From positions 1 through 64,000 of the forward strand of contig JAOZFI010000041.1 of the NCBI GenBank assembly GCA_027491395.1: 64,000 nt of DNA, given 5' to 3'. The translations under genes were made by a program, and so were the position numbers. Source of the stretch: Thermoproteota archaeon. Its GTDB lineage: Archaea > Korarchaeota > Korarchaeia > Korarchaeales > Korarchaeaceae. Of the stretch, positions 10,127 through 13,655 are shown one piece after another. A model generated the notes under the pieces. It was not told the DNA's origin. It searched no databases and worked only from the letters and a program-made list of their open reading frames with translations. Position 1 is the first letter of the stretch. The number at the start of each line of letters is the position of its first letter.

Positions 10127-10214
10127 GCCGGGGTGCCCTAGCCAGGAAGGGGGCTGGCCTGGAGAGCCAGTGGCCCATTGGGCCGCGAGGGTTCAAATCC
10201 CTCCCCCGGCGCCA
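10127..10214 (+). tRNA. tRNA-Ser(GGA), class II, CCA encoded
   Basis: Acceptor GCCGGGG/CCCCGGC; anticodon stem CTGGC-CTGGAGA-GCCAG; variable arm; T-arm AGGGTTCAAATCCCT; GCCA 3' end. Confidence 0.95.
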
Positions 10215-11332: not shown

Positions 11333-11731
11333 ATGTCTACGCAGAAGAAGGGCAAGATCGGTGTGGCACACATCTACTCCTCCTTCAACGATACCATAGT
11401 CCACATCACCGATATAACCGGTGCAGAGACCTTGGCTAGGTACTCCGGCGGTATGTTCGTCGACGCCGACAGGCTCGAGGGGTCGCCATACGCGGCCCTC
11501 AAGGCGGCGATGGCCGCCGCCAAGGAGGCCCAGAAGAAGGGTGTAACCCATCTCATAGTCAAGGTCAGAGCTCCTGGCGGGATAAAGAGCAGGATCCCGG
11601 GACCCGGGGCCACGGCGGCAATAAGAGGACTCTCTAGATCGGGTCTCATACTCATCAGGGTTGAGGACGTCACGCCCATACCTCATGATGGGTGCAGGAG
11701 GCCCCACGGTAGGAGAGGGAGGAGGGTCTGA
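11333..11731 (+). CDS. rps11: Ribosomal protein uS11
   Basis: [25 protein letters not shown] ... [18 protein letters not shown]. Confidence 0.97.
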
Positions 11732-11783
11732 TCCCTCTCAAACTTTTATTCCCGTGCACCCCAATTAGGATGAGGTAACCCTC

Positions 11784-12770
11784 GTGCCGGGGGATAACTT
11801 AGAGGAGATAGAGCCCCTGCTCAGCTGGTACGAGAAAGGGGCGGATTCCGTTAAGGTGGTCTCGCTTGGCCTAGATGGGCGTACTGTTCTCCTCGATATC
11901 AGGGGTAAGAAAAATATACGGCTACTAGTCGCACTGTACGATCCATCCTCGGATGGTAATTTCTCCATGTGGCTGAGGGATCTAATAGAATCTCATAAAA
12001 GGGCAGGAATAGAGTTCAATCGAGTGGAGGTCTGGACCTTATCGGAGATTGCGGAGGAGTTACTAGCGGAATCCGGAAAGCTTGATGGCATAGAAATAAC
12101 GGTAAGATATCTCTCAGAGATCGAGTCGCCTCTACCCTCTACGATCACCATTCCCTCTCCGGAGGAGCGAGCGACCATTATGAGAACGAGTAGACCCTCC
12201 TTCAGGAAGGAGAAGAGCAGAACTATTGTCATGGTCAAGGAGAAGGAAGAGCGCGGTGTTAAGTACGCGGAGCCCGATCAGAGCAGGGATGACAGCTTAA
12301 CTGCAATTCTGAACGAGATAAAGAGGACCATAGATCAGTCGATGAAGTCCATTGTGGAGGAGGTGAGGAAGGGTAACGAGATAGATCTCCTCAATAAGAT
12401 ACACGAGTTGGAGAAGAGAGTGGAACTCTTGGAGGCGATGATAAGGCTGCTAGGACAGCAGGGAACCATCAATCTACAACCAGCTGGCTGGGTGATGAGG
12501 AACAGCGTCCTGCCCAAGCTGGAACCCACCGAGATCGAGAATGAGTATAGGAGAGAGCAACCGACCGGAGCTGAGGCTGTTAGAACGAGAGAGGAGGAGA
12601 GGGCGGAATCCACCCCCGGAGACAGCCATCAAGTTAATATTCCATCCGCTCAAGAGAGCGGTGGATCCGAGGAATTCCCGACCACGGGATCCGAGGACAT
12701 ACTTGAAGAGATATTAAGCAACCCGTGGGTCGAGATCCTCAGGAGGAAGGGTGAAGGCGTTGAGGGCTAG
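11784..12770 (+). CDS. Conserved/hypothetical 328-aa protein with charged coiled-coil and disordered C-terminus, inserted between rps11 and rpo3
   Basis: Long ORF coupled to the next gene by overlap 12751-12770; promoter-like CAAACTTTTATTCC upstream; no recognised family. Confidence 0.75.
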   Translation: MPGDNLEEIEPLLSWYEKGADSVKVVSLGLDGRTVLLDIRGKKNIRLLVALYDPSSDGNFSMWLRDLIESHKRAGIEFNRVEVWTLSEIAEELLAESGKLDGIEITVRYLSEIESPLPSTITIPSPEERATIMRTSRPSFRKEKSRTIVMVKEKEERGVKYAEPDQSRDDSLTAILNEIKRTIDQSMKSIVEEVRKGNEIDLLNKIHELEKRVELLEAMIRLLGQQGTINLQPAGWVMRNSVLPKLEPTEIENEYRREQPTGAEAVRTREEERAESTPGDSHQVNIPSAQESGGSEEFPTTGSEDILEEILSNPWVEILRRKGEGVEG

Positions 12771-13524
12771 GATCGTAAAACTTACTGATGATGAGGCCGT
12801 TATAGTGGTGGAGGAGGCTAAGCCGCCCTTGGTGAATGCCCTGAGGAGGGCCATAATATCGGAGATACCCATATTCGCCGTAGACGAGGTGATATTCTTC
12901 GAGAACTCGACCCCTTTCTTCGATGAATACATTGCTCACAGGCTAGCCATGGTCCCGCTGAAGACAAATCTGGATGTAGTCAGGGCGGATCCAGAGAGGA
13001 CGGTCGTCCTCGAGCTAGTCAGGGAAGCCAAGGAAGACGTTGAAACCGTTTACTCAGGCGAACTCAAGTCATCGGATCCTCTAATCGTTCCAGCCAACGA
13101 GAGGATCCCTATAATCAAGATGAGGCAGGGTCAGAGGATAAGGCTCCAGGCGGTGGCCAGGCTGGGTAAGGGGAAGGATCACTCGAAGTGGCAGCCAGCC
13201 GTTGCTGTCGGCTACAGTTACATGCCCGTGTACGAACTGAGCAAGGACCTGCTCAAGGAGTGCGACCTCTCGAAGTGCGATGAGTGCATGAAGAAGAAGA
13301 GGAAGAAAGTCTTGGTGGATTACCCGGTTCTCTGTGAGGGATGCTTGGAAGCCTTGAAGAGATGCAGACTGGACAACCCCGATAAGGTCGTCAGGAAGTG
13401 GGATGACTCTAGGATAATTCTGAGGTACGAGACCACCGGCGCCTTGTCAGCGCAGGAGGTCTTCTTAGAGGCTATAAACCAGCTCAAGCTCAAGTTAAAC
13501 GAATTTTTAGAGAGGCTTGGATGA
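12751..13524 (+). CDS. rpo3: RNA polymerase subunit Rpo3 (RpoD) with Cys-rich Fe-S-type insert
   Basis: NALRRAIISEIPIFAVDEVIFFENSTPFFDEYIAHRLAMVPL; Cys cluster. Confidence 0.96.
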   Translation: MKALRARIVKLTDDEAVIVVEEAKPPLVNALRRAIISEIPIFAVDEVIFFENSTPFFDEYIAHRLAMVPLKTNLDVVRADPERTVVLELVREAKEDVETVYSGELKSSDPLIVPANERIPIIKMRQGQRIRLQAVARLGKGKDHSKWQPAVAVGYSYMPVYELSKDLLKECDLSKCDECMKKKRKKVLVDYPVLCEGCLEALKRCRLDNPDKVVRKWDDSRIILRYETTGALSAQEVFLEAINQLKLKLNEFLERLG

Positions 13525-13565: not shown

Positions 13566-13655
13566 GCGGGGGTAGCCAAGCCAGGTCCAAGGCGCCCGCT
13601 TGAGGGGCGGGTGGGCGTCAGGCCCGCGTGGGTTCAAATCCCACCCCCCGCACCA
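13566..13655 (+). tRNA. tRNA-Leu(GAG), class II, CCA encoded
   Basis: GCGGGGG/CCCCCGC acceptor; anticodon loop TTGAGGG in CCCGC/GCGGG stem; TGGGTTCAAATCCCA; ACCA. Confidence 0.93.

Follow-up and report, generated by a model that had tools for sequence, protein, structure and literature searches.

The window, the whole stretch of 64,000 nucleotides analysed here, carries a ribosomal gene cluster that contains uS11 and rpo3. As the sequence-only reading had described, a 328-aa ORF is wedged between these two genes and overlaps rpo3 by 20 bp; the ORF coordinates and the Pfam matches of both neighbours agree with this. The features of the locus are listed below.

11333..11731, + strand: uS11, upstream neighbour (Pfam PF00411, E 2.7e-41)
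11739..11752, + strand: BRE/TATA-like promoter element CAAACTTTTATTCC of the 328-aa gene (sequence; conservation in relatives)
11772..11776, + strand: Shine-Dalgarno GAGGT, 7 nt before the start codon, kept in L002-L008
11784..12770, + strand: 328-aa ORF, GTG start, Korarchaeia-specific gene between uS11 and rpo3 (same-junction homologues in 24 genomes; dN/dS)
11811..12122, + strand: predicted N-terminal alpha/beta domain, residues 10-113, order a-b-b-b-a-b-a-b (AlphaFold, Foldseek, alignment)
12279..12461, + strand: predicted coiled coil, residues 166-226, with HELEKRVELLEAMIRLLG core (single long helix in AlphaFold; dN/dS 0.05-0.10)
12465..12683, + strand: predicted disordered acidic/Pro-rich linker, residues 228-300 (pLDDT < 50; dN/dS 0.42-0.88)
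12690..12752, + strand: C-terminal tail, putatively for docking, residues 303-323, NPW at 12720-12728 (invariance in homologues and unrelated tails)
12751..13524, + strand: rpo3, downstream neighbour, 20-bp overlap with the ORF (Pfam PF01193 / PF01000; RNA_pol_L E 2.8e-12)

The ribosomal gene cluster also includes two tRNA genes: tRNA-Ser(gga) separates cbf5 from uS13 (10127-10214), and tRNA-Leu(gag) stands between rpo3 and eL18 (13566-13655).

Conservation of the gene at the uS11-rpo3 junction

The promoter-like sequence that had been pointed out at about 11739 proved to be retained: CAAACTTTTATTCC was found at near-constant spacing in seven relatives (L002-L008), and an analogous A/T-rich box takes its place in four others (L009-L012). 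When the window gene was compared with four near relatives, dN/dS over the whole gene was 0.24-0.31. By part, the coiled coil had the lowest values (0.05-0.10), followed by the N-terminal domain (about 0.2) and the linker (0.4-0.9). The 328-aa ORF is a real gene under purifying selection. That it might be spurious or an assembly artefact, as its lack of a family match could suggest, is refuted by syntenic homologues in 24 genomes, a dN/dS well below 1 and a conserved promoter, which leave this explanation practically no probability.

Synonymous divergence varied along the gene. In codons 301-328 (12684-12767), dS was 0-0.06 for all pairs of five relatives, whereas it was 0.2-1.5 elsewhere in the gene; this reduction goes beyond what the 20-bp rpo3 overlap explains and possibly reflects a nucleotide-level signal for rpo3 expression. 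In codons 1-165 (11784-12278), dS between the window and the four near relatives was mostly 0.8-1.5, the values for uS4, uS11 and rpo3 being mostly 0.2-0.6. The window copy of this N-terminal half is further from the four relatives than they are from each other, which would reflect either fast evolution or recombination.

A homologue was present at the uS11-rpo3 junction in all 24 Korarchaeia genomes in which this junction is assembled, and these represent three families. Fourteen belong to the genus (including the window's own genome and one partial copy, G015) and eight more to the family; of the remaining two, G024 stands for a second family in the order and G025 for a third one in the class. 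Two genomes, G007 and G011, were left out of the count as neither uS11 nor rpo3 was found in the assembly, and this is the only reason why they lack a homologue. Absence of the ORF from close relatives, against which the sequence-only reading had weighed its claim, is therefore not what the junction comparison it proposed revealed: the gene is syntenic throughout the class, a result in its favour. The same reading had described a normally compact archaeal gene order that is interrupted here. The compact order stood, uS11 and rpo3 being directly adjacent in 4 of the 5 other archaea examined and the gene being absent from the junction in the archaea sampled outside the class, but within Korarchaeia the interruption is the standard arrangement. 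One homologue, that of G002 (L013:1153-2022, + strand), shows no ATG, GTG or TTG before about codon 36, though homology reaches further upstream; either a non-standard start or a sequencing error would account for this.

Searching 397 genomes with the full profile gave full-length matches in one class only, and just coiled-coil noise outside the phylum, where the sample comprised about 370 genomes; a scan of 85,000 species was made with one peptide pattern only. The ORF lacks the presence across archaea that marks a universal protein of the ribosomal/RNAP operon. A match labelled 'Candidatus Bathyarchaeota' (L137) was rejected, as its contig carries a korarchaeal-type rpo3 beside the tail and is probably a mis-binned korarchaeal contig.

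The statement that the protein belongs to no recognised family has survived database searching. When 22 homologues were scanned with Pfam and NCBIfam and the PDB was searched by sequence, only coiled-coil matches or low-score noise came back. Pfam detected no RHH domain in the ORF or in any of 21 homologues, and the 328-aa ORF gave no match to the RPB5 C-terminal assembly domain (PF01191).

Predicted fold and layout of the protein

An AlphaFold model built with 22 homologues shows the layout that had been read from the letters, with an alpha/beta domain, a coiled coil, a disordered tail and a short terminal helix. Residues 10-113 are predicted with confidence (pLDDT mostly 83-93), residues 118-163 and 228-300 appear disordered, and two C-terminal helices cover residues 303-311 and 314-323. 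What that reading overlooked is that conservation within the protein is highest in the terminal helix, which is a modular motif present on other proteins.

Modelled alone, the N-terminal domain reached a pLDDT of 78.6 (about 77-88 over residues 10-113) and a pTM of 0.71. The prediction contains the core a-b-b-b-a-b topology of the PD-(D/E)XK fold (H10-19, E22-28, E34-40, E44-51, H60-73, E80-85). In two alignments, however, the catalytic (D/E)-x-K of strand 3 was not conserved across the 24 sequences, and the sole recurring candidate catalytic residue was an Asp before strand 2. The first Foldseek match in the PDB was RPB5 (9g1x_E, prob 0.97, E 0.0073, TM by query 0.49), and the following ones included further RPB5 chains, Cap4, Can2, EndoMS, EcoO109I and XisH. 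In the BFVD viral library a restriction endonuclease came first and giant-virus RPB5 homologues recurred, the best being that of Pithovirus LCDPAC02 (prob 0.99, TM by query 0.56). Over both libraries the RPB5 matches had E values of 0.007-0.1, no match in any library search had an E value below 0.001, and a sequence profile compared with RPB5 N-domains indicated no relation (hhalign prob 0.1%). Taken together, these predictions point to a restriction-endonuclease-like fold that has some flavour of the RPB5 jaw. This fold is generic, and the resemblance to RPB5 is a fold lead, not a case for homology, because no match passes E 0.001 and the sequence profiles indicate no relation.

The C-terminal NPW tail and its other bearers

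The tail peptide of the window protein, GSEDILEEILSNPWVEILRRKGE, contains W315 and L319 and follows the motif NPW-[VA]-x-[IV]-L-x2-K at the C-terminus. In 22 sequences, whose identity to the window protein is otherwise 15-75%, N313, P314, W315 and L319 never vary, and N, P, W and L are likewise invariant across 21 tails that include those of unrelated proteins. These other proteins, which have the tail alone in common with the window protein, were picked up by the full-length profile, and a tail-only HMM lengthened the list. We defined NPW-tail proteins by a motif of the type NPW-x3-L-x2-K that lies no more than about 20 residues from the stop codon; the window ORF is one of them (tail HMM E 1.4e-13), and in every accepted case the motif terminates the protein. 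The tail HMM gave no confident match outside the phylum, and a scan of viral contigs gave eight pattern matches, none of which was confirmed. The matches in G155 and G173 were set aside as chance, for the frame looks by eye antisense to an acyl-CoA-synthetase-like gene and is without NPW. A search of the open-access full-text literature for 'NPW motif' returned nothing related, only unrelated human CD8 work. Altogether, these sequence comparisons suggest that the NPW tail is a tag, hitherto undescribed, by which its bearers dock to a common host factor.

Several bearers resemble DNA-binding proteins. Three carry an RHH_1 domain above the Pfam cut-off (L087, L089, L090), a fourth has a sub-threshold RHH_1 match (L088), L126 looks RHH-like by eye, and L123 has weak winged-helix matches. 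The RHH-NPW gene of L090 overlaps a TFIIB-type (TFB) gene just as the window gene overlaps rpo3. In two genomes a radical-SAM protein is encoded upstream of the RHH-NPW protein (L087:3009-4237, assigned by eye; L089:4600-6287, confirmed by Pfam), a recurring association. A further bearer, the 131-aa protein of L125, is encoded between macrodomain and stomatin genes as judged by eye; there, NfeD-like, stomatin-like, NPW-tailed and macrodomain genes are co-directional (G025, L125:2712-6007, - strand, by eye).

In two further families of the phylum, which belong to other classes, a gene for a coiled-coil protein with an NPW tail lies between uS19 and eS25 (L124; also L122, where one opposite-strand gene intervenes toward uS19), and a 5'-truncated copy of such a gene stands beside eS25 in L091. 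Orthology of these genes to the junction gene is suggested by tail, layout and operon location; their N-domains had no detectable similarity to those of the junction family in a profile test with only two sequences on one side.

The 328-aa ORF is the only confident tail bearer in its own genome, and the host protein is therefore probably the main client of the tail's partner. The accessory and mobile-element bearers seem to exploit the docking site that this protein uses.

A possible adaptor function and comparison with known systems

We tentatively propose, at somewhat less than even confidence, that the protein serves the gene-expression machinery of korarchaea as an oligomeric adaptor without enzymatic activity, whose NPW tail docks one host factor, the likeliest being the transcription apparatus. 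The restriction-endonuclease-like domain would bind nucleic acid or the surface of a protein, the adaptor would dimerise through its coiled coil, and the disordered linker would present the amphipathic C-terminal NPW helix, which would then dock into a pocket on the host factor. Because the layout of target-binding domain, coil, linker and NPW helix repeats among the bearers, the tail may dock the common factor and the N-terminal domain decide the location. RHH and winged-helix proteins, those of mobile elements included, would bring the same factor to the DNA sites that they bind themselves. The likeliest partner would be RNA polymerase or a basal transcription factor, because the gene is strictly paired with rpo3 and the N-domain of its product is RPB5-jaw-like.

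That coupling to rpo3 suggests a transcription- or translation-associated role had been the proposal of the sequence-only reading. It remains conditional, and operon linkage with rpo3 is no proof of RNAP binding since ribosomal genes adjoin too, but it is now better supported by the strict rpo3 linkage, the uS19/eS25 neighbours in other classes, a tail common with DNA-binding proteins, and the RPB5-jaw-like fold.

Other readings were weighed against the adaptor of gene expression. A nucleoid or segregation adaptor, in which the tail docks a factor for chromosome organisation or partition, the N-domain of the host protein binds DNA and mobile RHH-NPW proteins act as centromere-like binders tethering the element to the host chromosome, is unlikely, although several observations speak for it. 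One contig with a bearer has integrase-like and ATPase-like genes by eye (L089/L150/L151), the L088 tail gene lies near a DNA-primase large-subunit gene, and single-protein plasmid partition adaptors have a similar layout of RHH, coiled coil and C-terminal tag. This reading is at odds with how strictly the host gene is linked to rpo3 and ribosomal genes, with the overlap of one RHH-NPW gene with a TFB gene, and with the lack of a ParA-like gene beside the tail genes by eye. A ribosome- or translation-associated factor whose tail attaches to the small subunit or to a translation factor would fit the flanking genes, uS11 here and uS19 and eS25 in other classes, but ribosome docking hardly explains why RHH and possible winged-helix DNA-binding proteins have the same tail, and we regard this reading as doubtful. 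Finally, an active PD-(D/E)XK nuclease in repair or RNA processing is very improbable, for the predicted topology and the matches to Cap4, Can2, EndoMS and EcoO109I come without the third-strand motif. Transcription is the most economical home for the common host factor, given the rpo3 coupling, the TFB-coupled RHH bearer, the DNA-binding bearers and the RPB5-jaw resemblance. A more specific version, which we hold to be improbable, would make the 328-aa protein an extra RNAP-associated korarchaeal protein; its N-domain would correspond to the eukaryotic RPB5 jaw in detached form, and its NPW tail would define a general recruitment code, copied by mobile elements so as to capture host transcription.

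A core-operon gene that is constant in a deep archaeal lineage and absent from family databases is a candidate lineage-specific transcription or translation subunit, a case parallel to Rpo13, the lineage-specific RNAP subunit of Sulfolobales. The common tail makes an orphan ORF a testable interaction code, with one peptide and one partner. If the partner were RNAP, this would bear on the origin of the RPB5 jaw, described as eukaryote-specific, and on the recruitment of host transcription by archaeal mobile elements.

Four known systems invite comparison. The N-terminal jaw of RPB5 in eukaryotic and giant-virus RNAP, also a small alpha/beta domain, ranks first or nearly first among the fold matches to the N-domain, and the gene to which the 328-aa gene is coupled encodes an RNAP subunit. 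In contrast to RPB5, the 328-aa protein is without profile similarity or assembly domain, its Foldseek E values are above 0.001, and it adds a coiled coil and the NPW tail. PMC2675907 and PMC6690254 describe archaeal Rpo5 as having no RPB5 jaw, and the former places Rpo13 in a groove that is left open because the jaw is missing. The genome of the window encodes a separate Rpo5 with a Lys/Ser-rich N-tail before the assembly domain and no jaw; its N-terminal extension of about 70 residues is Lys/Ser/Thr-rich and looks disordered (L148:1489-1914, - strand). Rpo13 is a precedent for an extra archaeal RNAP subunit at the level of an order, but it is a helix-turn-helix protein for which the passages of PMC2675907 considered here describe no alpha/beta domain or NPW tail. 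Members of the PD-(D/E)XK superfamily (Cap4, Can2, EndoMS, XisH) share the predicted topology of the N-domain, whereas the window protein is without their conserved catalytic (D/E)-x-K. The CopG-type RHH proteins of mobile elements share both the C-terminal NPW tail and the succession of domain, coil, linker and tail, and differ in their DNA-binding domain, which has no relation to the N-domain of the 328-aa protein.
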